Shown here: one piece after another, positions 24,359 to 41,050 of the stretch
Layout: every line of letters starts with the position of its first letter
How positions within the stretch are numbered: position 1 is the stretch's first letter
From: Candidatus Rifleibacterium amylolyticum
Lineage (GTDB): Bacteria; Muiribacteriota; Ozemobacteria; Ozemobacterales; Ozemobacteraceae
Length of the DNA stretch: 64,000 bases
Assembly: GCA_009917695.1 (NCBI GenBank)
Contig: JAACJG010000002.1
Coordinates: 124,001 to 188,000 of the forward strand
Reading direction: 5' to 3'
Notes under the pieces: generated by a model
The model's input: the letters and a program-made list of their open reading frames with translations, nothing else
What the model was told of the DNA's origin: nothing
Databases searched by the model: none
Position numbers and translations under genes: made by a program

Positions 24359-27300
24359 TTGTACCTGTTTTACAAATATAGCCTAAATCAGAGAAACTGC
24401 CTGTTGAAGGCACTATCAGCAATATATAAATTATTGCAGGAAACTCGCAGCGGGAAATTTTCCCTAGTCGCCCTGATCGCCATAGGGATTTTTTACCCTG
24501 CCATTGTCCATGGTATACAGACAAAGAGAGACGAATTAACAGCCTCACCCATCTACAATGCAAGTTTCGATTTTGCACTTGAAGAGCACAGCCAACCACG
24601 CGCCCACGTTGTACCGGCGCGCTTTTATTTTACCGCAACCGACAGCGAGCACTTGTACAATCTATCTTCCGGCGACACTGCCTATACCGCCTGGAAATCA
24701 GTTTACCCGACCGAATCGTGGGGTACACCCGAAAAATCGGCGCAAATTCCCGGTTACTACCTTGCGCTAAGTGCGAATCAAATCAGACCAGACACGCTAA
24801 CATCGATCGCAGCGGGAAAATATATTGCCACCAGCAATCTATCAGGAGTGGCTAAGCTTGAAACTTTCAGCAACAGCTCGATTTACCTTAACAGCCCGGA
24901 TTCTTCCAGAACATTCTCCAGTTCTGCCCCGAATCTTCCCCTGACTATGATTCAGACCCGTGCCAGAATCTACGTCTGCTGGGTCGAATATGATCCAGAC
25001 ACATTCAGCTCATCAATAAAAATCACTTCAACTTCTGATGGCGTAAACTTCGTCGGTTCGCACACATTAGTCGCAACGGGCAATTTCTCTCCCTCCATCG
25101 GGGTATCTGGCTGCAGCATAAGTCACGGCTCCGATGAATACATCGCTGTAACATACGCCAAGTCATCTTCTGAGGCTAACATCTTAACATTTAAGGCGCC
25201 CCCAACTGTCATTGATCCACCCTATCCGGCGACCTATACCACCACCATAGGCCTTACCGATATAAGCTCACGGGAAATCGCCGTGACCCAGAACCCACGA
25301 ACATCAGAGATAATCATTTCGTGGCTGAGACTTGATGGAGATTACAAGGGCTATTACCGCACATTCAGTTTTACTCCAAACAACACATGGACACCCATTT
25401 CAGCGGTGACACTTGTTGCTTCAGGCTTCTCCAAAAATTATGGCGTCAGCGTCGAAAGCTACACCAACTTCGAGAACACTTTTGTAATACCTTCAGCGAC
25501 AGAACTAAAAAGCTATACGCTTAGAGACAGCGTATCCGCCCACGACAACTTCAGTCCGGCAGGCTATGCAACTCAGTTCAATTTCACTGACAACCAGAAA
25601 CATTATGCAGGCCTGCTCAGCTATGACTTCATCAACAAATATTTCTATTTCTACAAACGCGAGCTTAGGTTCCCCGATGAGGGGCGGTGGGATAAAACGA
25701 GCAAGACCCTTCATCTGGAAGGACCGCCGTGGCCAAACACGCTTGTAAAAATCGAATATGAATTTACTGAAGTTGCTACAGATGCATGCATAGTTCACAT
25801 GGTGAATGCGAATGGCGGGCGCCAGCCGTTTAACAACATGACCGGTGTCATTGCCAGCAGCGCCTCAGCACTGTATACGGTCGAATTTGACTACAACATG
25901 GATACCGGACTGTATGCCGGATACATGAACAACAAGATCCGTATGTTAGACAGCTTGAACAATCCGGTCAACATCAGTTATGTGTCAGGCACCAGCACTG
26001 GAATTTCTTTCAGGCCAGCTGGAGATCTGACGCTTAACACCAGTTACCGTATCGAAATTGCCAGCGACGTCATAGATGCTCGTGGCACCCAGATATGGGA
26101 GCCGGTCACGCTCAACTTCACTACCCAGAAAAGCAGCTCATCGGTTATTGCCAGCGAGGTCAAAAACATCACCGCCTGGCGCGATGCTGCCCGCACGCAG
26201 CCGGTTTCCGACGGTGAAGCCAGCGATACCGCCGACATCTATCTTAGACTTGATGCAATTGATCCGGCATTCAATACCATAGACACCGCAACAGTGGCTA
26301 TTCTACTCAATGGTGTGCAAATCGCACAAGCCACACTTACCCAGCTCAATGCCACTTCTAACTATTTCGACGGCTTTTACAAGCTTTCTACCGCACTGGC
26401 AACCGACAGCGTATATACCTTCAAGGCACATCCAAGCTCGGCGACAACAACCAGCGTCATCGTCAACTATCCAACTTTCACGCCGGTGTATCCGTTGTCT
26501 GGCGCAACGAATGTACCTGGCCTGCCGACAATAAGAGTCAAAGCCAGCGAACCGATTCGTCCGGAATATATCTCAGCTGCCTCTGTAAAGCTGCTGAAGG
26601 GTGCCGTTGAAATCGCAGTCAGTCGCTCTTATGACGCAGGCAATCGCGAGATCGTCATTGTCCCGGATGCCAGTCTCGAAAGCGAAACGACCTATACCGT
26701 TTCGGTCGCTTCGATGCGTGATTCATACTACAACGTGCAGAAATCAGCGTTTTCTTATCAGTTCACCGTTGCCGACATTAAACCACCGGAAGTTACTCCC
26801 GCCAGCCCCATTAACGGCGAAGCCGGGGTTACAATCGACCGCTTCATCGTCTTCAATATCAGCGAAGCTCTTGCAGCCGCAACCGTTAACAAGACTTCAG
26901 TCAAACTCACCAGAGCCGGCATTCCAGCCAGCTACAGCATTATTCTCAGTGGCAGCAAGATCACCATCGACCCCGACGATGCGCCAGATGGCGGCCTTGA
27001 GCCGCAGACCACATACGTGGCAGAAGTTACCACCGCAGTCACTGACCTGGCCGGAAACAATTTGCCAGCGGCTGTCAGCATCTCCTTTACGACTCAGCCT
27101 TATTCAACCCCACCGACAGCGATCGGTAATATCACTCTCTATAAAGATCCGTTGCTGATATTTGGCTGGGGGCTCTACGAAAAGATTCCCGCTTCTGCCA
27201 CCGTATACATCAAAGTGACTGGCGACGATGGCGCTACTCAGACCCGCGATCTGGCAACTGCCAGCCTTAACTTTTCATGGGGTGCGCCTCAGAAAAAAAT

Positions 27301-30300
27301 CAGCCTGGTCGAGACCGCCTCAAACTCTACAGGCATCTATTTTGGCAGCTTCAACTTTGGCTCCACGCTTTACGGGTTTCCAAATCCACTGCCACCGACC
27401 AATGCCGGCAGTATGACTTTCAGCGTCGATCTTGATCCAGCCGAAGCCGCAACACTTACCGTTACATTTCCGGCGCTGGTTCCTGCAGAAACTCTGGTTA
27501 ACAGCACATCCGGCCAGGTAGTCGCGTCAAACGCCAGCAACGTCAGAATCGATTCCAGCATAATCCTGAGTTTCTCAGACCAGCTGCTCGATAGCGGCAA
27601 CCCGGTATCGCTGGCAATATCATCTGGAGCCGTCACTCTGTCCGGCACGCGCACACTCAGCGCCGACCGGCGTAAAATCACCTTCCAGCCTGACAGCCCG
27701 CTTCCCTACTCGAGCAAAATAACGGTCTCGGCGCCTTACGCCGCCACCGGCCTGAAATCTATGCAAGGCAATCCGCTTTATCGCAATGCCTACTTCACTT
27801 TTACGACCCAGGATGCTCAGACACAGCCACTAAGCATTACACAGGTAAATCTCTTTCCTGATTCCGGCTACTCTGCAGCTAACAGCTACGACAGCAACGA
27901 CGATTTTCCACGCAGCGGCACCATATACGTCGAAGCGCGCGGCCCCGACGCCGCTTCGAATACTGTCGATTTCACCACGGTCAACATAAGCACCGGAGAC
28001 AGTCTGCAACTCAACGAAACCAGCGCCAGCTCGGGCATTTACCGCGGAATTTACAACTACCCCAGTCAGGCGAACGGCTTTGCGTTTATCGTTTCATCAG
28101 CAGTTACGCCTGCTGCCAGCCGGACATTGATCTTGAGCGTTCCTTCTCTGGCGCCAGTGACACCGGCTTCAGCCAGCACAGACGTATCGATCAACACAAC
28201 GATCAGAGCAAAAGGCAGCGAGGATCTTGACCCGACGACGGTTAACAGCAGCAACGTCAAGCTGTTTAAAGGAGGCGTCGAAGTTGCCGGTGCAGTCAGC
28301 TACATTGCCAGCGAAAAAGAAATCGTATTCACTCCCCTGTCACAGCTGGCAACAAGCACTTTGTATGTTTACAGCATGAGCGGCATCAAGGATCTGGTCG
28401 GAAACACCATCAGCAGTAATCTTGTGGTCAGTTTCACGACGCAGGCAGTTACAGCACCGCCAATTCCTCCTATCACTCTCAAAGTTTATGCGAACAGCGA
28501 CTATACCGGCGAACTGGCTGATCTTGCTTTTGTGATACCCGGCAGCCAGGTTTTTGCCGAGATCTCGGCAACAGATGTTTCGGCAACAACTATAGACTCG
28601 ACTCTGCTTCAACAGAAATCAAACCTGTCAGGAACAACGACTAATTACACTCTGCTGGAAACAGGCATTAACACCGGAATTTTGCGCGCAGGCGTAACAC
28701 TTTTCAGCGAAGGGAGTGCGACACTGACGCTCACTTCTCTAACCGACACAAACAAGTTCGTCAGGCTTAATACCTACTCTTACCCGACAATTTCGGGATT
28801 GGCTCCTGCCTCTGGAACTGCAAATATATACCTGAACCGGGATATCATCATCACCACAAACAAGAACGTTGCAGCGGCCAGCTTGAGCACCTCGACGATA
28901 CGCCTTTCAGATTCCTCGGGAGCTGCTTCTTATGCATTGAGTCTGACCAGTCCTACCACCATAACAGTAAAAACTGATCTTGAAGCTGGTTCAACTGTGG
29001 TTTTGAGGATCACTCCGGGGCTGAAAGACACTGATGGCATGAGCTTTCCAGATACCATTGCCAACTACAGCACAATTTCAAGAAGTTTTTCCGATTTCGG
29101 CCTGTATTCCGATGCAGGTTTTATCAACCTTCTGGCCATGGGCGCCGAAGTCGAAACCGGGCAAACCGTATATCTCAAACTGGAGGGTACCGACACAAGA
29201 TTCGGCGAAGTCGAACAGGCAACGGCAACTCTAAAATCAAGCAATCCTGATCAGTTGATCTCTCTGACTGAGACCGCTGCCGGCCGCTTCAGCAGCCCGT
29301 TTGTCATACCAGACCTGCCCAACGAAACCGTTGAGTTTATCCCCGAAAACCGCGCCGATTTTACCCGCACCCTTAAAATATTGCCGGCTTTTGCCCTGCT
29401 CTCTTATTCACCGGCCAGCGGGGCAATTACCGTGCCGGCCGACAGCTGGCCAACCTGGAACTTCACCCGACCGGTACGCAGCACTGACATTACCACAGCC
29501 AATTTTTCGCTTAAAAAAGCCTCAGATGGCTCTCTGGTACCGGGAACTCTTACGACCTCCGGCACAGGCATGCAGGTTCGCTTTCAGCCGGCCGGCCTGC
29601 TTGCATTGCTGACGCAATACGAAATGTCAGTTTCGGCGACAGTTAGAGATAATTCTGGCAATGTGCTTGGCGAAGGTCTCAAAACGCGCTTCACGACTCA
29701 GCCGCCACCGGCTCCACCAGACGAGAACATCAGTATCGCCAATTACGAGACCGCCGAATACGCCACCAGAACCTTTGCGGTTGCATACAACGAGAGCCTC
29801 TACCTCGAACTTGTCGCCAAAGACACCTCTTTTTCTACTTACGAAACAGCCCGGGTGCGCCTCGAATCTTCTGATGGCAGCCTCGACGGCCTCGAACTGA
29901 CTCTTATCGAAATTGCGCCGCCATCTGGCATTTACCGGCTGGCACTGCCAATTAATCTACCACCGGGCACTACGATAAAAGTGCAGTCACAGGGCGACCC
30001 GACCAAAACGATCACCATCACCGCCAGGGTCAGAACCAACTTTGTATCGATGAGTCCTGCTTCAGGCACTGGCAATCTATTTTTAGACAGCCCGATTACC
30101 CTGAAATTCAGTCACAGCATCGATCGCACTACCGCAACAAATGGCGTCAAGATGCTGGCTTCTGCCAGCGCAGATATACCGCTGCGCTTTGCCTGGGCTG
30201 ATTCAGACCGAACAATTATCATCACACCTGACGTCGCCTATGCAAGTTCAACCAGACATTCGTTACAGCGACTCACCAACCTGCGCGACAGCAACGGCCT

Positions 30301-31954
30301 GTTCCTGCTGCCAGACACCGCCTGGCTCACAACGCGGAGCCCGGCCAGCGCAACGCTCGACCTGCTCACCGGCATTGCTCCACGCAGCGGACAAAGTGTT
30401 GCGCTGCATGGCGAGGCGACACCAGGCAATCTCGTAGTGCTGGCGACGACGACCAACATGTTCGAAACTTACGCTGAAACGCGCACTGTGCAGATAACGA
30501 CAGCCTCTGGCAGCAATCTGGTGACCCTTTCAGAAACCGCACCGGGCAGCTTCAGAGGCGAATACAGCCTTGCTGACGACATCGTTGGCGAGATCAACTC
30601 CGCCCTGCTCTTTGCCGGGGTGCCTTCGCTGACCTTCAACCTGGCGCCTTTGCCCGAAGTCGTTTCGATCATTCCGGCCTCAGGAAGCAGCGGCATCGCT
30701 GAACTGCCTGCCATTTCGGCGACTTTCAGCCGCAGACTTGCCTTCGAGTCAACCAATGATGCGCTGCGCATTCTAACCGATGCCGGCAACATCGTTACCA
30801 CGCGAACCAGTCCTGATGCCGACAGCACAGGCTTCAGCTGGCTGCCACTTTCGCCGTTGCCACTCCAATCAACCTGCACACTACAGCTGTCAGGGCTGAC
30901 CGATTATCTCGGCCAAAGCATGCCTGTCTACCAGCACCCATTCATGACCGGCGGCCGTCAGGGCATCAATCTTTTCAGTGACAACAGTTTCGCGCAGCTG
31001 ATTGCAACCAATCAGGTCGATATCCCGGTGGTATTCGTCGAGGTCGCCGCTTCCGGCACCCTCAACCTGGCCGGCCGCACCTTTGACCTTCTTGCCCGCA
31101 CCGGTACCCGCGCCACGTCGACGGTAAAACTGCAGCTCGAGGCCTATAACACCGAAAGTGGCCGATTCAGATGCAGCCTCGAATTTGAGCCAGGCAAGGC
31201 GGTTCCACAGTACCCACTGGCGCTGCTTCCCGGTGAATGGCTTGAAATGACCTCTCCCATACTTACCGACGATGTCAAAGTAATATATTACAAACACTCC
31301 GGCTCAGCTTCGCCTGAAAACATTCTCGGAATCAGACTCTACTCAGAAAAGCATTTCGCTCAGCGGATAACCGACACAATCGCCAACCCCAGCCTGTTCA
31401 TCGAAGTCGAAGCCGAAGACCTCAACTGGTTCACCACTGATATCACCAGAATCAAAATAAGCTCTGAAGCAGATCAGGCCGGCCTGATACTCGACCTGGT
31501 CGAAAACGGCACCCACTCATCACAGTTCCGTAATTTTGTCAGACTCAGTCGCGATAACAGCGATGCAACGATCAACAACCTCAAGGTTCTGCCGGCCCAG
31601 CGGATCTTTATTGAATCGGTCACTGATCCGGCCGTCAAGACATCGATCCTGTATCTGCCGGTTAACACCATCAAAATGATGTCGGTTTATCCCAGCCCGG
31701 CCCGGGGCAGCAAGGTGAGTTTCAGATTTTATCTTAATTTCCCGACTTACGTCGATCTCAAAATTTATGACACTGCCGGACACGAAGTCTATTCGACCGG
31801 CATTCGCGGCATTGAAGGCGAAAACGTCTATGAATGGCGCCTGCCACGCAAGATTGCCAATGGCACTTATTTCTACTCAGTAAAAATAGATAACGAAAGC
31901 GGGTTTCCTGACGCCAAACGCCGGGTACGCGGCAAATTTGCGATTTTGCGCTGA
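24359..31954 (+). CDS. Giant exported surface protein of alternating Ig-like (Big_5) and beta modules with a FlgD-Ig-like C-terminal tail
   Basis: A 2,531-residue protein. A hydrophobic export segment lies at about 37-54. Starts at TTG 24359, 24404 or 24434 are possible; the last gives a normal-length signal peptide. Residues about 70-470 are beta-rich and look like a propeller. From about 500 two module types alternate. One is Big_5/SbsA-type Ig, each opening with a form of P-x-S-G-x-x-x-V near 710, 815, 1045, 1268, 1482, 1684, 1898 and 2104 and ending x-x-F-T-T-Q. The other has L-x-x-D...V-Y-(I/L)-x-(V/L)-x-x-x-D and ends L-x-E-T...S-G-I-Y-x-G. Residues about 2442-2531 (YPSPARGSKVSF, LKIYDTAGHEVYS, NGTYFYSVKI) match FlgD-Ig or type IX-style sorting tails. 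It probably acts in adhesion or in the cell surface layer. Confidence 0.85.
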   Translation: MYLFYKYSLNQRNCLLKALSAIYKLLQETRSGKFSLVALIAIGIFYPAIVHGIQTKRDELTASPIYNASFDFALEEHSQPRAHVVPARFYFTATDSEHLYNLSSGDTAYTAWKSVYPTESWGTPEKSAQIPGYYLALSANQIRPDTLTSIAAGKYIATSNLSGVAKLETFSNSSIYLNSPDSSRTFSSSAPNLPLTMIQTRARIYVCWVEYDPDTFSSSIKITSTSDGVNFVGSHTLVATGNFSPSIGVSGCSISHGSDEYIAVTYAKSSSEANILTFKAPPTVIDPPYPATYTTTIGLTDISSREIAVTQNPRTSEIIISWLRLDGDYKGYYRTFSFTPNNTWTPISAVTLVASGFSKNYGVSVESYTNFENTFVIPSATELKSYTLRDSVSAHDNFSPAGYATQFNFTDNQKHYAGLLSYDFINKYFYFYKRELRFPDEGRWDKTSKTLHLEGPPWPNTLVKIEYEFTEVATDACIVHMVNANGGRQPFNNMTGVIASSASALYTVEFDYNMDTGLYAGYMNNKIRMLDSLNNPVNISYVSGTSTGISFRPAGDLTLNTSYRIEIASDVIDARGTQIWEPVTLNFTTQKSSSSVIASEVKNITAWRDAARTQPVSDGEASDTADIYLRLDAIDPAFNTIDTATVAILLNGVQIAQATLTQLNATSNYFDGFYKLSTALATDSVYTFKAHPSSATTTSVIVNYPTFTPVYPLSGATNVPGLPTIRVKASEPIRPEYISAASVKLLKGAVEIAVSRSYDAGNREIVIVPDASLESETTYTVSVASMRDSYYNVQKSAFSYQFTVADIKPPEVTPASPINGEAGVTIDRFIVFNISEALAAATVNKTSVKLTRAGIPASYSIILSGSKITIDPDDAPDGGLEPQTTYVAEVTTAVTDLAGNNLPAAVSISFTTQPYSTPPTAIGNITLYKDPLLIFGWGLYEKIPASATVYIKVTGDDGATQTRDLATASLNFSWGAPQKKISLVETASNSTGIYFGSFNFGSTLYGFPNPLPPTNAGSMTFSVDLDPAEAATLTVTFPALVPAETLVNSTSGQVVASNASNVRIDSSIILSFSDQLLDSGNPVSLAISSGAVTLSGTRTLSADRRKITFQPDSPLPYSSKITVSAPYAATGLKSMQGNPLYRNAYFTFTTQDAQTQPLSITQVNLFPDSGYSAANSYDSNDDFPRSGTIYVEARGPDAASNTVDFTTVNISTGDSLQLNETSASSGIYRGIYNYPSQANGFAFIVSSAVTPAASRTLILSVPSLAPVTPASASTDVSINTTIRAKGSEDLDPTTVNSSNVKLFKGGVEVAGAVSYIASEKEIVFTPLSQLATSTLYVYSMSGIKDLVGNTISSNLVVSFTTQAVTAPPIPPITLKVYANSDYTGELADLAFVIPGSQVFAEISATDVSATTIDSTLLQQKSNLSGTTTNYTLLETGINTGILRAGVTLFSEGSATLTLTSLTDTNKFVRLNTYSYPTISGLAPASGTANIYLNRDIIITTNKNVAAASLSTSTIRLSDSSGAASYALSLTSPTTITVKTDLEAGSTVVLRITPGLKDTDGMSFPDTIANYSTISRSFSDFGLYSDAGFINLLAMGAEVETGQTVYLKLEGTDTRFGEVEQATATLKSSNPDQLISLTETAAGRFSSPFVIPDLPNETVEFIPENRADFTRTLKILPAFALLSYSPASGAITVPADSWPTWNFTRPVRSTDITTANFSLKKASDGSLVPGTLTTSGTGMQVRFQPAGLLALLTQYEMSVSATVRDNSGNVLGEGLKTRFTTQPPPAPPDENISIANYETAEYATRTFAVAYNESLYLELVAKDTSFSTYETARVRLESSDGSLDGLELTLIEIAPPSGIYRLALPINLPPGTTIKVQSQGDPTKTITITARVRTNFVSMSPASGTGNLFLDSPITLKFSHSIDRTTATNGVKMLASASADIPLRFAWADSDRTIIITPDVAYASSTRHSLQRLTNLRDSNGLFLLPDTAWLTTRSPASATLDLLTGIAPRSGQSVALHGEATPGNLVVLATTTNMFETYAETRTVQITTASGSNLVTLSETAPGSFRGEYSLADDIVGEINSALLFAGVPSLTFNLAPLPEVVSIIPASGSSGIAELPAISATFSRRLAFESTNDALRILTDAGNIVTTRTSPDADSTGFSWLPLSPLPLQSTCTLQLSGLTDYLGQSMPVYQHPFMTGGRQGINLFSDNSFAQLIATNQVDIPVVFVEVAASGTLNLAGRTFDLLARTGTRATSTVKLQLEAYNTESGRFRCSLEFEPGKAVPQYPLALLPGEWLEMTSPILTDDVKVIYYKHSGSASPENILGIRLYSEKHFAQRITDTIANPSLFIEVEAEDLNWFTTDITRIKISSEADQAGLILDLVENGTHSSQFRNFVRLSRDNSDATINNLKVLPAQRIFIESVTDPAVKTSILYLPVNTIKMMSVYPSPARGSKVSFRFYLNFPTYVDLKIYDTAGHEVYSTGIRGIEGENVYEWRLPRKIANGTYFYSVKIDNESGFPDAKRRVRGKFAILR

Positions 31955-32415: not shown

Positions 32416-32880
32416 TCATTTTACCTTGTTGATGAAGCAGCTGCCGTAATTCTGATTCTGACGATAGCCTTTGAGGCCGCGGGATCCCTGCCTTATGCGG
32501 CCAATCTCGGCCTTGATTTCGTCTTTGAGACCGGCAATGTGCGTTTCGACGGCCTTATCGCTGTCTACCAGTTCTTTAAGAGCGTGTCGAACCTGATTGC
32601 AATCTGTCTCAAGTTGTGGAGCCAGTACCGAAATAGTGCGAACGGCTTCGGCGATGCTGTTACAGCTGAACGGATGGTCAGGAAAGCTGTTTTCCATGGC
32701 CTTCACCAGTTCCTGGGTCAGCACCGCGAGGTCTTCCATAACCAGATCACGCTGTTCGATAAGATTTTTAAAAGACTCGAGACTGCCACCCTGCTCGATG
32801 AACTTCTGATTTGCAGTACTCAGCCGTTGGTAGGCTTTTGTCAACGCCGCAATCTTGCCTGCCATAGCCATTTGTGTCAT
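32416..32880 (-). CDS. Small helical coiled-coil protein (FlgN/FliT-like in shape)
   Basis: A 154-residue, almost fully helical protein with no signal or membrane segment. Heptad-like stretches run from residue 5 to about 130, and the tail GLKGYRQNQNYGSCFINK is more conserved-looking. The length, helix pattern and a C-terminal G-Y motif recall FlgN/FliT-type export chaperones, but no flagellar gene is nearby and the resemblance is weak. Its ATG overlaps the kinase stop (ATGA), so it is translated with the Ser/Thr kinase and is probably a partner or substrate of it. Confidence 0.7.
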   Translation of the reverse strand: MTQMAMAGKIAALTKAYQRLSTANQKFIEQGGSLESFKNLIEQRDLVMEDLAVLTQELVKAMENSFPDHPFSCNSIAEAVRTISVLAPQLETDCNQVRHALKELVDSDKAVETHIAGLKDEIKAEIGRIRQGSRGLKGYRQNQNYGSCFINKVK

Positions 32881-34535
32881 TCCTTTTTGTCTGCTGTTTT
32901 TATTTTGCCGAGTATCTTGTCAAGGTGGTCAAACAGCGACTGAGAAAACAGTATAGTTTCTTTATGTTCGGCAAAAACAGCGTGACCGCCACGATCGACA
33001 CCATTGAAGGTCTCGACGATCGACACACCAGTCCAGCCAAGCTTCTGCACTGCTATGATGAATTCGAGCGGCCAGAAAAACCCGCGGAACCCTTCAGGAC
33101 TGCGCGGCATATTGCGATCGCCAACCATCAGAAAGATCGGAAAGTCCTTTTCTTCATAGGCGCCAAAGAACCAGTTGGATTGATCCCAGGCCAGGAATGA
33201 ATCTTTTTTGTTGATCGAAAAGCTGCGCTTGGCTCTCTCGGTAAAGTTGATCTGGCCAACGATAATGTCTTTACCTTCTGTAGTTGCGAGTTTCTGCTCG
33301 ATCGTATTGATGGTAAAAGGCAAACCACGCTTTTCAAATGCTATGGTCTCGAGTTTGAAAATAGAATTGAATTTGTCGATAACCAGAGGCTGACTCTTGA
33401 AGCCAAGTGCCATCTTGATCTGCACTTCGAGTCTGGCATAGTCATCCTGCAGAGTCTGGCAGAGAATGTTAAGATTCTCGACTTTTTCGACATCAGGAGT
33501 CAACTTGCTCTTTTCGATCTTGAGTTTCTGTCGGTTTTCGATAAGCTCAGCGCGCTGGCGTTTGAGAATAGCCTGTTCTTCGCTGAGGGTGCGCTTTTTG
33601 AAGCTGCGGCGGGCAAGATCGACACCGCGGATCTCGCCGGCGATAGAACTGATACCAAGACCGGCTTTGCCCTGACGGGTTACTTCGAGCAGGCGCTCGA
33701 GCTCACCCTGTACCATTTCGGCGGTCGGGTAGCGCTGCGTCGGATCCTTCGACAAAAGCTTGAGCACTATCTGCTCAAGCTTTTGCGGAATCGCGGGATT
33801 CAGCTGGCGTGGTGGCGCAAAGTTCCACTTGGTCTGTTCGATGAAAACCTGCATGGCACGCTTGCCCTTGAACGGCAGATGACCGGTCAATTTTTCATAC
33901 ATGACCACGCCATAAGAAAACAGATCCGACAGAAAATCGATCGGTTTATTGGTAAGCTGCTCAGGGCTGGCATAGGCGACAGTAAACATGCCGTCAGCAC
34001 TGAGATTCAGATCGTCATCCTTCTCTGAATACTTGGCGATGCCAAAGTCGATCAGACAGGGCTTGTATTCACTGCCACGCAGAATTATATTCTGTGGCTT
34101 TATGTCTCGATGCACCAGCCCCTTTTTATGCACATAGCCAAGCGCTTCGAAGCAGCCGATAAAAACGGTCAGATACTCTTCCATGCTTGGAATGGCCTGC
34201 TTGACGCCTAGAGTCGTCATTGAATTGCCCAGTGGAAAGCTGTCGAGCGACAAGCCTTTGACGTAATCCATGACAAGATAATGAAAATCGGCTTCACATC
34301 CCTGTGCGACAAAATTGACAATGTTGGGATGCCGCAGGTTTTTGAGTATCTCGCCTTCCTGCTTGAACTGGCCGAGTATGGCCGGCACCTTGGCCACTTC
34401 CGGATCAAGAAGCTTTATGGCCACCAGCTTATCTGTGTCAAGCTGGTAGCCAATATATACCGAACCCATTCCACCACACCCGATAAGATCGAGAAGATGG
34501 TAATTCGTTAATTCTGGAGGATTAACGATTGGCAT
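32877..34535 (-). CDS. Hanks-type Ser/Thr protein kinase with coiled coil and novel C-terminal domain
   Basis: A 552-residue protein. The kinase domain fills about residues 11-285: glycine loop GCGGMGSVY, lysine in VAIKLLD, catalytic loop HRDIKPQN, metal loop LIDFGIAKYS and YASPEQL. All catalytic residues are present. A coiled coil spans about 315-375 (start EEQAILKRQRAEL). The last 170 residues form an alpha/beta domain I do not recognise (from GFKSQPLVIDK to the end). There is no membrane helix and there are no PASTA repeats, so it is a cytosolic kinase. Its upstream neighbours are a TPR protein and a PP2C phosphatase, its likely antagonist; the coiled-coil gene overlaps downstream. Confidence 0.92.
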   Translation of the reverse strand: MPIVNPPELTNYHLLDLIGCGGMGSVYIGYQLDTDKLVAIKLLDPEVAKVPAILGQFKQEGEILKNLRHPNIVNFVAQGCEADFHYLVMDYVKGLSLDSFPLGNSMTTLGVKQAIPSMEEYLTVFIGCFEALGYVHKKGLVHRDIKPQNIILRGSEYKPCLIDFGIAKYSEKDDDLNLSADGMFTVAYASPEQLTNKPIDFLSDLFSYGVVMYEKLTGHLPFKGKRAMQVFIEQTKWNFAPPRQLNPAIPQKLEQIVLKLLSKDPTQRYPTAEMVQGELERLLEVTRQGKAGLGISSIAGEIRGVDLARRSFKKRTLSEEQAILKRQRAELIENRQKLKIEKSKLTPDVEKVENLNILCQTLQDDYARLEVQIKMALGFKSQPLVIDKFNSIFKLETIAFEKRGLPFTINTIEQKLATTEGKDIIVGQINFTERAKRSFSINKKDSFLAWDQSNWFFGAYEEKDFPIFLMVGDRNMPRSPEGFRGFFWPLEFIIAVQKLGWTGVSIVETFNGVDRGGHAVFAEHKETILFSQSLFDHLDKILGKIKTADKKE

Positions 34536-34555
34536 AAATGCCTTTCAGGATTGAT

Positions 34556-35110
34556 TTATTTGCCCTGCGTGGAAAGGTAGTCGATGCGCTCCTGAGCGTT
34601 TTTGGCGATCTTGGAGTTCGGCTTGAGCCTTATGACTTCATTCCATTCCTTTTTGGCTTCGGCCATCATGCTTTTCTTAAAATAGCTGTTGGCCAGGTAA
34701 TAGTGCTGGTTTTCGTTGTCAGGCTTGATTGCCAGGGCTCTTTTATAAGTTTCGATGGCCTTGTCGATGTTATTGTTGCTGTAATACATGAATGCAAGCC
34801 AGTCAAGCAGGTCAACGTTATTCGGGTCACCTTCGAGCAGCTTTTCAACCTCGTTTATGCCTTCACCGGTTCCGGCAGTGTACTTGGTCAGCAGCTCTTC
34901 TTCTTCAGCTTTCATATCATTCTGAAGATCAGAACCAGACAGAACCTGTTTGAAGCGCTTGTGGGTAAGGTTTTCTTTCTTTTCTTCGACCGGCGGTTCA
35001 GCCTTTGTCTCTTCCTTGCCCTTGTCTTTGTCTTTGCCGCTCAGCACAAAAACGACAATGCCTATCAGAACGACTATCCCAATTATAATTGCTATAAGCA
35101 TCCCGTCCAT
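34556..35110 (-). CDS. Membrane-anchored TPR protein
   Basis: A 184-residue protein. GGAGGT lies eight bases before the ATG. One N-terminal helix (AIIIGIVVLIGIVVFVL) anchors it. A charged K/E-rich linker (about 24-45) and two to three TPR units (about 70-180) follow, for example AIETYKRALAIKPDNENQHYYLA. The TPR part probably faces the cytoplasm, where it could dock the kinase encoded 20 bases downstream. It sits between the PP2C and kinase genes in one transcription direction. Confidence 0.82.
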   Translation of the reverse strand: MDGMLIAIIIGIVVLIGIVVFVLSGKDKDKGKEETKAEPPVEEKKENLTHKRFKQVLSGSDLQNDMKAEEEELLTKYTAGTGEGINEVEKLLEGDPNNVDLLDWLAFMYYSNNNIDKAIETYKRALAIKPDNENQHYYLANSYFKKSMMAEAKKEWNEVIRLKPNSKIAKNAQERIDYLSTQGK

Positions 35111-35178
35111 TTGAAGTGACCTCCAGATTTCACTAATTGTATATATACTTCAAAACCAGAAGATTTACCATAGTTTTA

Positions 35179-36000
35179 TTAAACTCCACCAGCATTTACC
35201 TTGTTGAATAGTTGATTAAGCAATCTTTCAAAAGAATAGCGGGCGGGAAAAGCCAGCGGAAGCTGGTCAAATGCGAATACGACTGCCGTCGAGTTGTCTT
35301 TGCCGCCAGCGCGGTTTGCCGCTTCAACAAGCTTAACAGCTGCGTTTTCCGGCTGATTTTCAACCAGGATTTCTTTGATCCTGCCGTCTTCGATCATGCC
35401 GGTAACACCATCAGAACATATCATGAATACGTCATTCACCTGTATATCTGTTTCAAAAATATCCGGTACGACAAATTGCCGACTGCCCATTACCCGGCTC
35501 AATATATGTCGGGTCGGATGCACCCGGGCCTGTTCGGGCGTCAGTTTGCCCAACCGAACCTGCTCAGCAACCAGTGAATGATCATTGGTCAGTTGAATCA
35601 GGCTGTCTCCACGCAGACGATATAGCCGTGAATCGCCAATATGACCGACCAGAGCACTGCTGCCCCATGTTATCATCATGGTCAGAGTATTCCCCATCCC
35701 AGAAGTCTCAGGATGCTCCTGGGAATACCCCCAGACGGCTGAATTGGTCTGGGAAAACAATTCTTCGAGCATCGGCACACTCATGGCATTGCCGGCACTG
35801 GTAGAAAACCACTCAGAAACAGTCTTCATGGCGATTGCCGAGGCGACTTCGCCGGCATTCTGACCGCCCATTCCATCGGCAACGGCAAACAGGCAGACCT
35901 GCCGCTCTATAGCAGGCCCGCTCCATGGCGGAATGACCAGACAGGCGTCCTCGTTGTTTCTCCTGACCATTCCAAGGTGTGTATAGCTTGATATGCGCAA
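35179..36000 (-). CDS. PP2C-family Ser/Thr protein phosphatase
   Basis: A 273-residue protein. A TTG start at 36000 places the conserved opening SSYTHLGMVRRNNED right at the N-terminus, as in PrpC/Stp-type enzymes. Metal-binding and fold motifs: ADGMGGQNAGEVAS, GHIGDSRLYRLR, ICSDGVTGMI and GKDNSTAVV. No membrane segment is present. It should dephosphorylate proteins modified by the kinase at 32877-34535. The Shine-Dalgarno site is weak. A terminator separates it from the HU gene upstream, so it probably opens the signalling operon. Confidence 0.92.
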   Translation of the reverse strand: MRISSYTHLGMVRRNNEDACLVIPPWSGPAIERQVCLFAVADGMGGQNAGEVASAIAMKTVSEWFSTSAGNAMSVPMLEELFSQTNSAVWGYSQEHPETSGMGNTLTMMITWGSSALVGHIGDSRLYRLRGDSLIQLTNDHSLVAEQVRLGKLTPEQARVHPTRHILSRVMGSRQFVVPDIFETDIQVNDVFMICSDGVTGMIEDGRIKEILVENQPENAAVKLVEAANRAGGKDNSTAVVFAFDQLPLAFPARYSFERLLNQLFNKVNAGGV

Positions 36001-37140: not shown

Positions 37141-37339
37141 CAGGTTCAAATGGGGATACGAAAGAATCAAACTTTGTATTGAAGAGCTCTGGAAATCGAG
37201 AATCCGTTGCAATGTGCCTTTAATGAATTCACCGCTACTCTGTTTGCCTTTGCAACATGCTTATTTCCTTGCAACTCAGATTATGGCTGACTGCTTTTCA
37301 TATATGGTGCTGTTGTTTTAATTCTGGCTCAGACGAATA

Positions 37340-37372
37340 AAAGGCCTCGCGGCAATATGACACGAGGCCTTT
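37340..37372 (-). terminator. Hairpin terminator after the TadG-like gene
   Basis: A ten-base perfect stem (37340-37349 with 37363-37372) 28 bases after the TadG-like stop. On the minus strand it is followed only by a short T-rich stretch. Confidence 0.65.
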
Positions 37373-37400
37373 GAATTCGCAATCTGTAGCCAGCCAGAAT

Positions 37401-40148
37401 TTAATAAAGCTTACCTGGCGGCAATTCATTAGGATCGACAATGTATCTGATAAATTTTCCTCTTACCTGGCCAGGTTGATAGGGCCCAAGGTCGCCGGCA
37501 TGACCAGCTTCGTAATCCAGCGTTCCATCGTAGCCTGCTCTGGTGTAACTTGCAGGAGGAATGACTTCAAATTCGGCAAACCCAATGATTCTAACAGAAG
37601 CCTCAAAGTCGTAATTCTCGGGTCGGTAAATGCCATTGGGATGATCAGTGCCCTGCAGATCGTAAATACTGGAAGCAGACGCATTTTTTGTGCTGTTCAA
37701 AGGAATTTCAGGGCCAATGTCGGTAATCGGAACGATGATTCTTGAGTTCGGCTTATAAGTTTCGTTGCCGTAGACTCTGAAACCGACCGCCTGATCGGTC
37801 GGGCCAGCCATGTTTCCTGGTTCGATCATAAGGCGGTCATTGATTTCCAGCGGGTTATTAAAGCCGAACATGAAGCGATCACGATAATCATTGGCGCCAC
37901 CGCCATTGGTGTTGTCCATGTCAACCGGACCGTAGCTGCTTTTGTTTTTTCCGGTGATATCATCTGGCGGAGGAACATCGCCGGTAACATCTTTTTCTAC
38001 CAATGACCCAAGAAGTATGTTATTCAGAACCAGACGCTTGCTTTGGACATTATGATGGTAATGTCCGGCGAGAAACGTGAACTCGCCGCTGCCCTTCTGA
38101 CCTTTAACATAACGAGCCTGAGAGCTGTTTGTGGTTCTGTTCCCCAGAATTGCAGTCTCATCTTTGACGCAATCGTGATTAAATACAGCGGTGTGGCCCG
38201 TGCCCGTATCAGGATAAGTGCCATGATTCTGGCATCTGGGGTCAGTGGCTCCGATAAGTGTAAATGGGAGGCTTGTCCCTGCCGATATAGGCGAGTTAAT
38301 CGTCGAATAATAGCTGACGCCAACTTTGATTGGAAATCGACGATATATATAGTCTTCAAAAGCGAAACAGTCGGAAAATGCCGTAACTGGATCTTTGCCC
38401 TCATAGATTCCTGCCTGCCAAAGAGCTATATCCAGCGTTTCGGGAGCAAAGCACTGAGCAAAAAGAAACCCGCCAATTTCTACATGGCTGCGAATCCTTC
38501 GTGCAACATCCCACTTCATTTTTTGCACTGCTGTCGCCTTATCAAACCACCCGGCAGCGTTATCGCCGATACCTGGCCCATTGTTACCTGTACCGATCAC
38601 GTCTCTGGGCTTGGGTTCAGACCCTTCGTCGCTGGTGTAACCATGGGCTGCGGCTATGCCACGCAAGGTGTTATATTCTCGACATTGCAGATAATCACTC
38701 GATCCACACATAGTGACACCGGCATCGTCTCGATAAAAAACACCGTTCTTGCCCTGACGTTCGGCACAGCGTATATGGCGCAGCTGGCAACTGTCTTCAT
38801 CATATGAATCTGCCCACTGCCAGCTGGTTACTGTAACCCACTGCCATTTCCCTGAAACTCTCTTCCATTTCTGAGTCGTTGTAAGAGTATATTTTCCACT
38901 GCAGTATGGGCACATCCTGTTCTGAGCATTGTCTTCTGTTCCTAAACTGTTGTTGTCGAAAAAAGTCCTACAGGTCCAGTCCCGCCGTCCGCAGCCACCG
39001 CTGAAACCGGTAAAGTCTTCGTGATGAAGATGCACCCAGTGGTATCCATCGAGGGTGCCGTCGAGAATCTCGCCATCGTAAATATGCGAATTATTATCCT
39101 CATCATAGGTTTCAGTTCTTTGCCAACCATCTGGCATACTGTATCCCCCGTATGGAATAAGCGCACTTCTAAGAACTTCTTCAACCGGATCTGCCCCAGC
39201 CTGCGACGAGTAAACCGCTATCCTTGGCCGGTCATACAATTCGAGAACATTGGGATTTACCTGATCAAATATGGCCTGAATTGCATCTGAGCCTTCAATG
39301 ACTTCATATGATACAGATTTGTAAGGATTAGATTTAAGCTTGGCAATCAAATCATCGTGATATGGCAGAAAAAATGAACCTCCACGATAACCAAGCAGCC
39401 AATAAACAGGTGTAAATCCGGTATCAGTTCCATTGCCTATTCTCAGGCACCAGAAGGCAATACCGTAAGCTCTGAGATATCCTGTTTCGCTCTTCTGGGC
39501 ACCAGAATCCATAGGTATCAGGATCATTTTCAAGCCATCCTGATCTGGTGGTATTTCTGTATTGCCGCCGCCGGAACCAAGCTTGAGTATGTATTCCTGA
39601 CCATCCTGAAAACCCTCGTCACTACCAAACAGGGAGCAAGTATACATGTTTTTGCTAAAATCTTTGGTGGTTCCGTGAGGAATAGCAAGGGGAATGATTC
39701 CCGCAAAACTTGAACCGCTATCACGACTGGCGGAAACTTCTGTAGAATTTATATTCATTATCCTTGCAAAGAACAGCCCAACCCCACCTTTGGCTGCGAC
39801 TTTCAGACTGTCCCTGCTTATCTCAGTTTCGATATCATTATCGCTAAGTTCCTCCTGAGAAAAGCCGTTTGTCCTGATGACTTCAATAATATGATTTCTG
39901 ACATTTTGTATATCTTCGGCAGTCAGTTGTTTACCTGGCTCAAAATCTGCCAGCCTGTCAAAACCCGCTTTCCAGCCGGCATTAACCGCCGTCTGAAGCC
40001 TGCTGTGGCTGAAATAAAGATAACCAATATCTGTGACCAGAGCGATTATGCTAATCATGAGCACGGCTGCCAGAGCAGTCATCACCAATACGCTGCCGTG
40101 CCTGTTCAGAGAGCAAATATAGCCAGAACTGCATTTTCTAATATTCAT
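37401..40148 (-). CDS. TadG-like pilus protein fused to a large HLHHEDFTG-motif domain
   Basis: A 915-residue protein. GGAGGG lies five bases before the ATG. Residues about 15-60 (HGSVLVMTALAAVLMISII, then HSRLQTAVNAGWKAG) form the membrane anchor and pseudopilin-like start of TadG/TadE proteins. Residues about 150-340 form a mixed domain with MILIPMDSGAQKSE. Around residue 370 is WVHLHHEDFTGF. Cysteine pairs follow (C-x6-C; C-P-Y-C near 407; two more pairs to about 490). Then come VARRIRSHVEIGGFLFAQC and HYHHNVQSKRLVLNNILLG near 680. The HLHHEDFTG...GGFLFA...RLVLNN order recalls a family often annotated 'asparagine synthetase B' in Bacteroidota and Gemmatimonadota, from memory. The rest is beta-rich. 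TadE lies 70 bases upstream. Confidence 0.75.
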   Translation of the reverse strand: MNIRKCSSGYICSLNRHGSVLVMTALAAVLMISIIALVTDIGYLYFSHSRLQTAVNAGWKAGFDRLADFEPGKQLTAEDIQNVRNHIIEVIRTNGFSQEELSDNDIETEISRDSLKVAAKGGVGLFFARIMNINSTEVSASRDSGSSFAGIIPLAIPHGTTKDFSKNMYTCSLFGSDEGFQDGQEYILKLGSGGGNTEIPPDQDGLKMILIPMDSGAQKSETGYLRAYGIAFWCLRIGNGTDTGFTPVYWLLGYRGGSFFLPYHDDLIAKLKSNPYKSVSYEVIEGSDAIQAIFDQVNPNVLELYDRPRIAVYSSQAGADPVEEVLRSALIPYGGYSMPDGWQRTETYDEDNNSHIYDGEILDGTLDGYHWVHLHHEDFTGFSGGCGRRDWTCRTFFDNNSLGTEDNAQNRMCPYCSGKYTLTTTQKWKRVSGKWQWVTVTSWQWADSYDEDSCQLRHIRCAERQGKNGVFYRDDAGVTMCGSSDYLQCREYNTLRGIAAAHGYTSDEGSEPKPRDVIGTGNNGPGIGDNAAGWFDKATAVQKMKWDVARRIRSHVEIGGFLFAQCFAPETLDIALWQAGIYEGKDPVTAFSDCFAFEDYIYRRFPIKVGVSYYSTINSPISAGTSLPFTLIGATDPRCQNHGTYPDTGTGHTAVFNHDCVKDETAILGNRTTNSSQARYVKGQKGSGEFTFLAGHYHHNVQSKRLVLNNILLGSLVEKDVTGDVPPPDDITGKNKSSYGPVDMDNTNGGGANDYRDRFMFGFNNPLEINDRLMIEPGNMAGPTDQAVGFRVYGNETYKPNSRIIVPITDIGPEIPLNSTKNASASSIYDLQGTDHPNGIYRPENYDFEASVRIIGFAEFEVIPPASYTRAGYDGTLDYEAGHAGDLGPYQPGQVRGKFIRYIVDPNELPPGKLY

Positions 40149-40218: not shown

Positions 40219-40668
40219 TTATTCTTTTCGCTCCTTTGCCGAGGCATGTATGGTGATAGTTCCCGGTTTGCTTTCGCTACCTACAAGGCTCCCCAGAAGC
40301 GGGGTAACAGGACTGAAATCGAAAGACGCTTTCACCTCCACGGTTTCAAAGCCATTAACGCCCACCCCGGCGAATTCTATTGCGCTGTAGTTGTTTTCAG
40401 CCATCATCGGCGACCTGAATTTCCAGAAAACTGCTTTTACAGAGTCTTCGGGTGTATGTGTCGCAGACGTGAACATGTCTCTGGCTACCAGCGGATGAAT
40501 CCGCTTTGTAGCGGCGCGGGCAGCTTGAATGCATTGATAGTTCAACGTGCTCCATGCATGCATTGCTCTGCCAAAATCGAAAATTCCAATCAGCGCAAAC
40601 AGGAACAAAGGCAAAACCAAGGCCATTTCAACTGTCGCCTGACCACGCTTTTTTCTGGGTTTATACAT
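40219..40668 (-). CDS. TadE-like pseudopilin family protein
   Basis: About 149 residues from the ATG at 40668; a TTG at 40701 in frame is the alternative, and the AGGGAGGG between them is rather far (11 bases) from the ATG. The N-terminus has the TadE signature KKRGQATVEMALVLPLFLFALIGIFDF (seen as GQATVEMAL plus the hydrophobic helix). A periplasmic domain of about 110 residues follows. TadE/TadF proteins are minor pseudopilins processed at the membrane for Flp/Tad pilus assembly. Only the TadG-like gene accompanies it, and no TadA ATPase or TadB/C is in the window. Confidence 0.85.
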   Translation of the reverse strand: MYKPRKKRGQATVEMALVLPLFLFALIGIFDFGRAMHAWSTLNYQCIQAARAATKRIHPLVARDMFTSATHTPEDSVKAVFWKFRSPMMAENNYSAIEFAGVGVNGFETVEVKASFDFSPVTPLLGSLVGSESKPGTITIHASAKERKE

Positions 40669-41050
40669 TATGCTGTTTTCCCTCCCTACCAAATCGACCA
40701 AGCAAGAATCGTGCTCATTTTCCCAAATAAATCATAAAAAAAAGCGCAGCGAATTATCATAGAATTTGCAAAATTCTCGTGTCGATTTGCATAAAAGCAG
40801 CTTAAGATTGTTTCGTCTCTCACCGCATGGTAATGGCTCTATGAGGAATTAGAATGATCGCAAACCATCTAAGCACAGCAACATGTATTCAAGAATTCAA
40901 TGAAGCCTTTGCAGCGAAAGGCTAATGTTTTGGAGAATTTTTTCATTGCCCAGGTAAAAATTACCACACAAAAAGGTAAAAATACCCCACAAACGCCAAC
41001 CAATCATTCGACCCTTTTTACACATTGTGCAGAATGCCGGCATACCGGGG
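40669..41050. other. Intergenic stretch without a gene
   Basis: No convincing reading frame. It holds the two tandem palindromic sites at 40952-40995, the part of the duplicated methyltransferase 3' region lying beyond that gene's stop (41012-41050), and an A/T-rich zone next to tadE (40730-40800) that may carry the tadE promoter. No consensus promoter was identified. Confidence 0.6.
40952..40995. repeat. Tandem 22-bp repeat, each copy centred on a palindrome
   Basis: Two adjacent copies beginning AGGTAAAAAT, with a 22-base period. Copy one contains GGTAA-n3-TTACC (40953-40965) and copy two GGTA-n4-TACC (40975-40986). A two-turn spacing of palindromes is typical of a pair of operator sites; which gene they would control is not clear. 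Confidence 0.6.

Follow-up and report, generated by a model that had tools for sequence, protein, structure and literature searches.

A TadG-type minor pilin of Candidatus Rifleibacterium amylolyticum carries an inserted head with a predicted class I glutamine-amidotransferase-like fold

The 915-residue open reading frame at positions 37401-40148 (minus strand) of the window, the 64,000-nucleotide stretch of DNA that we analysed, encodes a TadG-type minor pilin with an inserted head of predicted class I glutamine-amidotransferase-like (GATase1-like) fold. The draft assembly comprises 5.4 Mb in 35 contigs, of which contig 2 contains the window. We read the protein, with a probability of roughly 70%, as a large tip-type minor pilin of a Tad (type IVc) pilus, of the TadG/CpaL/KilN type, that carries a GATase1-like head instead of a vWA head. 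The preliminary description of this DNA had linked the protein to a pseudopilus; we assign it instead to the probable tip of a Tad pilus.

The N-terminal anchor, recognized earlier as TadG-like, scored 26.4 bits against the Pfam family PF13400 (Tad anchor, residues 17-56), above the curated cut-off of 22.3. The whole anchor region (residues 1-196; 39561-40148, minus strand) consists of a leader, a long helix (17-67) and a small β-domain, and shares 48% identity with a headless TadG paralogue of the same genome (548 residues, on C7, adjoining TadE genes). At the other end of the protein, a C-terminal β-module (residues 728-912; 37413-37967, minus strand) is also common to headless TadG. Since the headless paralogue aligns at both ends, everything in between, a head of ~515 residues, is an insertion. 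The suggested co-occurrence with TadE was confirmed by a TadE minor pilin gene immediately upstream (40219-40701, minus strand; PF07811, 52.4 bits). Directly past the TadG stop codon, folding revealed a GC hairpin followed by UUUUAUU (37330-37372, minus strand; fold z-score of -6.73 for the stretch 37325-37400), which has a loop of >8 and was missed by the terminator scan. It is likely the terminator closing a TadE-TadG unit, and because of this strong hairpin and U-rich tail just 3' of the stop codon we regard the two genes as a compact unit. The headless TadG paralogue at L010:7668-9314 seems to hold two copies of the C-terminal module.

The head is homologous and collinear to a secreted stand-alone protein of 418 residues encoded in the same genome (L011:5891-7147, minus strand). 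BLASTP aligned the two in two collinear blocks, with 33% identity (E=4e-21) and 29% identity (E=1e-17), and both blocks were also found by profile. The first half of the head (residues 205-382; 39003-39536, minus strand) ends in HLHHEDFTG (373-381; 39006-39032). The second half (residues 541-722; 37983-38528, minus strand) contains GGFLFAQC (559-566) with the elbow Cys566 (38451-38453), GG-His696 (38061-38063) and RLVLNNILLG (705-714; 38007-38036). Between the two blocks, directly past HHEDFTG, falls a Cys-rich insert (residues 383-500; 38649-39002, minus strand) with eight cysteines, including those of CPYC (413-416; 38901-38912). All four motifs lie where the preliminary description had placed them, and its assignment of the head to the HLHHEDFTG family is upheld by the two homology blocks together with the fold match described below. 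Its fusion, however, stood only in part: TadG and the HLHHEDFTG domain are indeed joined, but not in a simple end-to-end layout. Alignment shows two insertions, one nested in the other, with the head inside the C-terminal module of TadG and the Cys module inside the head.

Of 287 genomes drawn from across the domain, 98 contained the stand-alone family, outside Riflebacteria nearly always as a single copy of ~420 residues; genomes of many bacterial families have it as a single-copy gene. It matched no Pfam or NCBIfam family and had no PDB relative by sequence; EcoRV matches of the stand-alone protein in the PDB (E=0.5) were discarded as chance. An NCBIfam VirB4 match (E=0.078, 11 bits against a cut-off of 1050) was set aside as chance too. 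The homology with the heads is collinear over the whole domain and includes HHEDFTG, GGFLFAxC, RLxLNNIL and GG-His. Unlike the heads, the stand-alone protein has neither pilin parts nor a Cys insert, and it keeps W126-D127-D128, H36, H381 and HDPxD, a set that has largely disappeared from the heads. The full set of invariant residues of the stand-alone family is not found in the heads, which, judged from their sequences, are a derived branch of the family and not plain members of it. In its own locus (L011:2363-13647), the stand-alone gene is grouped with genes for DUF4159, DUF4175, TPR and peptidase proteins, the last of which reads as M48-like, and a similar grouping was seen in several other genera.

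AlphaFold predicted the stand-alone protein with a pLDDT of 79.9 and a pTM of 0.83. With Foldseek, this model matched class I glutamine-amidotransferase-like structures, namely STM3548 (2gk3, E=3e-7), lin1909 (3fij), 3soz and the ThuA-like 1t0b, and further GH42 β-galactosidases and carbamoyl-phosphate synthetase chains. The model of the full fusion (pLDDT 83.3), whose alignment also included stand-alone rows, matched GH42 enzymes, 2gk3 and 3fij (E 7e-4 to 8e-5). The same set of targets, GATase1, GH42-middle and ThuA, was thus reached from two separate models, so that the structural match awaited by the preliminary description was obtained for the stand-alone protein and the head alike. The model drew on no more than ~30 sequences. 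Because the whole-chain TM-scores were low, we limit the claim to the fold class and name no closer relative: the head and its stand-alone family are predicted to adopt the class I glutamine-amidotransferase (GATase1/ThuA/GH42-middle) fold. This is a first structural assignment for a widespread family without a name.

In both models, a conserved cysteine directly follows a strand and directly precedes a helix: C228 in the stand-alone protein (strand 223-227, helix 229-239) and C566 in the window protein (561-565 and 567-582). This strand-to-helix turn is the nucleophile-elbow position of the class I glutamine-amidotransferase fold. Of a Cys-His-Glu triad like that of class I enzymes, the window head offers two candidate members, the elbow Cys566 and GG-His696. 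The head resembles these structures in its fold and in the cysteine at the turn, but differs in having no detectable sequence similarity to them and in its His-rich HHED loop. According to the preliminary description, the HLHHEDFTG family is often mis-annotated as asparagine synthetase B, a name that a GATase1-like fold would make understandable. Asparagine synthetase B itself (an Ntn-type glutamine amidotransferase joined to a synthetase) was rejected, with no AsnB, GATase_7 or Asn_synthase match in Pfam or NCBIfam. A search for annotated stand-alone homologues among plasmids returned none, and in the literature searched we found no work tying the asparagine synthetase B name or DUF4159 to TadG.

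As anticipated, the same fusion occurs in other genomes. The distribution was derived from a separate genome search: of 40 genomes examined from the uncultured phylum Riflebacteria, 30 had head-bearing TadG, in four families (f1, f4, f5 and f6; one f1 genome, G019, yielded a fragment only), while families f2, f3, f7 and f8 had the stand-alone protein only. No fusion was found in 58 other genomes bearing the stand-alone protein or in 17 genomes of one further phylum. When the genome contigs were scanned with the fusion alignment, the matches were limited to Riflebacteria TadG without a head and a single TadG of Clostridiaceae. In the tree, one supported branch (100/99) separates all heads from the stand-alone proteins, which is compatible with a single capture of the head into TadG within one phylum. 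The fusion genes frequently belong to TadE-TadG clusters or to the tad operon, and several genera have the head-bearing TadG as the closing gene of a tad operon, after two TadE genes (L089, L090, L091, L095, L097). Inserts in the heads span ~130-525 residues in f1 and ~1,060-1,160 residues in f5, where a TIG domain occupies the insertion point used by the Cys module, and in f4 the main insert is at a different loop, near stand-alone position 127. The TadG proteins L045, L046, L048 and L049 reach ~1,800-1,900 residues with such a TIG-containing insert. One f4 genome has a tandem array of four head-bearing TadG genes of 924-934 residues each (L047:2558-14604), as if tips were multiplying.

Conservation within the heads was compared with that of the stand-alone family, in which 110 residues are invariant among 22 proteins. 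Among these, 39 are each retained by 90% or more of 20 site-positive fusion heads, and those lost include Q33, H36, W126, D127, D375, D378 and H381. Nine of the 39 (D128, V130, W159, H161, H163, H164, F167, C228 and H374 in stand-alone numbering) are in turn lost in nearly all of six other heads. Most fusions keep the WxHLHHEDF loop, the elbow Cys and the GG-His together, whereas all six site-less fusions lack both the Cys and the His and have an altered HHED loop. More distant families always have the elbow Cys and the GG-His, with an HHED loop that is somewhat variable and, in L052, not alignable. With the key columns (loop, Cys and His) excluded from its construction, the tree calls for no fewer than two independent losses of the site residues. 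A two-by-two test of co-loss gave P=3e-7, but it ignores relatedness and scores L052 as kept, so that the honest count is the at least two events on the tree. Such coordinated loss looks like the loss of one functional site, and we regard the co-conserved HHED/Cys/His set as a putative Cys-His site in most copies. In the genus of the window protein, a head-bearing TadG with a site-less head is split into two open reading frames (L058:6169-8630), which may point to a copy in decay or to an error of assembly.

The strongest alternative, which we hold at somewhat below even odds, is that the head is a purely structural or adhesive scaffold: an enzyme fold captured once that displays Cys-rich or TIG/Ig-like modules from one loop, the HHED/Cys/His set being a structural or metal-holding core. 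The many stand-alone invariants lost in the heads speak for it, as do the great diversity of the inserts (from the ~130-residue ones of f1 to the TIG-containing ones of f5) and the fact that the tad operon in the genus of the window protein still encodes site-less heads with an intact Cys module. It accounts less well for the fact that all 20 site-positive f1 heads have kept HHEDFTG together with the elbow Cys and the GG-His despite only ~33% overall identity to the stand-alone family, or for a coordinated loss that resembles the disappearance of a single functional site.

The preliminary description had called the cysteine pairs unexpected for either parent, and indeed neither the stand-alone family nor headless TadG has the insert. 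Its cysteines pair in sequence as 386/393, 413/416, 454/461 and 481/489. The first six are invariant in 22 of 22 aligned fusions from the same bacterial family (or genus) as the window protein, and 481/489 are nearly so. Site-less copies carrying the insert still keep these cysteines, so that maintenance of the Cys module does not depend on the putative site. A profile search of the PDB gave no confident match for the insert, and an ERO1-like match on a relative (E=0.032, below the cut-off) was treated as noise from Cys composition. The eight cysteines might bind metal in a zinc-ribbon-like or rubredoxin-like manner and make the pilus head metal-sensing or redox-active, a proposal that has in its favor the CPYC/CSYCR-type knuckle, the even number of cysteines in most copies and a best PDB profile match to a zinc-finger protein, itself non-significant (E=0.15). 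We consider it doubtful: instead of the two CxxC knuckles of a zinc ribbon or rubredoxin, most copies have one CxxC only, the rest being CxnC with n of ~6-8, and the sequence contains no CxxCH heme motif. The protein is moreover exported, and disulfides are favored over metal by the even Cys number in most copies, the apparently paired gains and losses of cysteines and the DsbA-like oxidase gene in the genome.

The genome contains three TadG-type genes. Besides the window copy and the headless one, a head-bearing TadG of 873 residues (on C8) lies within a tad operon with secretin, CpaE, CpaF, TadB, TadC and two TadE genes; it has lost the putative site residues and kept the Cys module. Prepilin peptidases and Flp-type pilins are encoded in the same genome. 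The window TadG lies apart from the tad operon, next to one TadE gene only, and this location would fit a surface enzyme anchored in the membrane that has the Tad anchor in common with tip pilins without being one. Such a role is improbable given the TadE neighbor, the C-terminal module common to headless TadG and the occurrence of its orthologues in tad operons of other genera. An assembly artefact or a chance order of motifs, for which nothing speaks beyond the draft status of the assembly, is refuted by conservation, as the head aligns in order to the stand-alone protein, a paralogue exists in the same genome, and uninterrupted homologues recur in many independent assemblies, genera and families of the phylum.

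TadG-type tips with variable heads are already known, and Tad-pilus tips were recognized only recently as exchangeable heads (KilN, PMC12075869) or mechanosensors (CpaL, PMC12607857). The KilLMN proteins, which form TadE/F/G-like sets, were shown genetically to be exchangeable Tad-pilus tips, with models in which a variable domain of the large TadG-like pilin is exposed (Herrou et al., PMC12075869). The Myxococcus tips share with those described here the TadE/TadF/TadG-like clusters, the several copies per genome and the large pilin exposing a variable domain. They differ in that the extra domain of KilN4 has no characterized homologue, while the window head can be traced to a stand-alone relative and assigned a fold, and in that the window copy has no second small minor pilin alongside. 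CpaL, the TadG orthologue of Caulobacter crescentus, is predicted to have a Rossmann-type vWA head split by an inserted β-domain and to lie at the pilus tip, in a complex with small minor pilins (PMC12607857). We count that predicted complex as part of a shared plan, together with the pilin-like anchor and the large Rossmann-type head split by an inserted module. The CpaL head, however, is a vWA domain with a MIDAS, whereas the window head is GATase1-like, carries a Cys-rich insert (TIG in related proteins) and is placed inside the C-terminal module of TadG. A vWA head was rejected for the window protein, with no vWA among the best 50 Foldseek matches and no D-x-[ST]-x-[ST] in the sequence. 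In the literature searched, we did not find a head of GATase1 fold that can be traced to a stand-alone family, is nested in TadG and is itself a platform for insertions.

The plan matches that of the KilN and CpaL tips while the fold of the head differs, and we therefore read the protein as a tip minor pilin whose head would make contact with a ligand on a surface. A prepilin peptidase would remove the leader of the window TadG, which would then join TadE at the end of a pilus, and the tad machinery encoded on another contig would push this tip outward until the head contacts its ligand. The Cys module may form a stabilized recognition cap beside the pocket, and it, or the Ig-like modules found elsewhere, would flank the pocket and probably set recognition. 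The intact HHED/Cys/His set of the window paralogue might bind or modify the ligand; the operon paralogue, which lacks this set and keeps the Cys module, should be a binding-only tip. The three tip sets of the genome, two headed and one headless, could serve as exchangeable tips. Tentatively, and with less confidence than we give the scaffold, the tip might even carry an active enzyme with a Cys-His site, a hydrolase or transferase of GATase1 fold on an extendable fiber that acts on the touched surface, with the inserted Cys-rich or TIG modules setting its specificity and site-dead paralogues kept as binding-only tips; the loss of many stand-alone invariants counts against this putative catalysis.

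A pilus tip of this kind may bind, or even act chemically on, whatever it touches. The origin of its head can be traced to a secreted enzyme-fold protein, single-copy in many bacteria, that was captured into TadG within one phylum and then diversified, with modules inserted at mainly one loop and the putative site lost coordinately in some paralogues. This traceability makes the choice between a binding tip and an "enzyme on a stick" directly testable. Elsewhere in the window, genes for a Ser/Thr protein kinase, a TPR protein and a PP2C phosphatase (32877-36000, minus strand) lie beside an HU-like gene past the TadG terminator. On the plus strand (24359-31954), an open reading frame of 2,531 residues contains nine Big_5 Ig-like domains and probably encodes a large surface protein.
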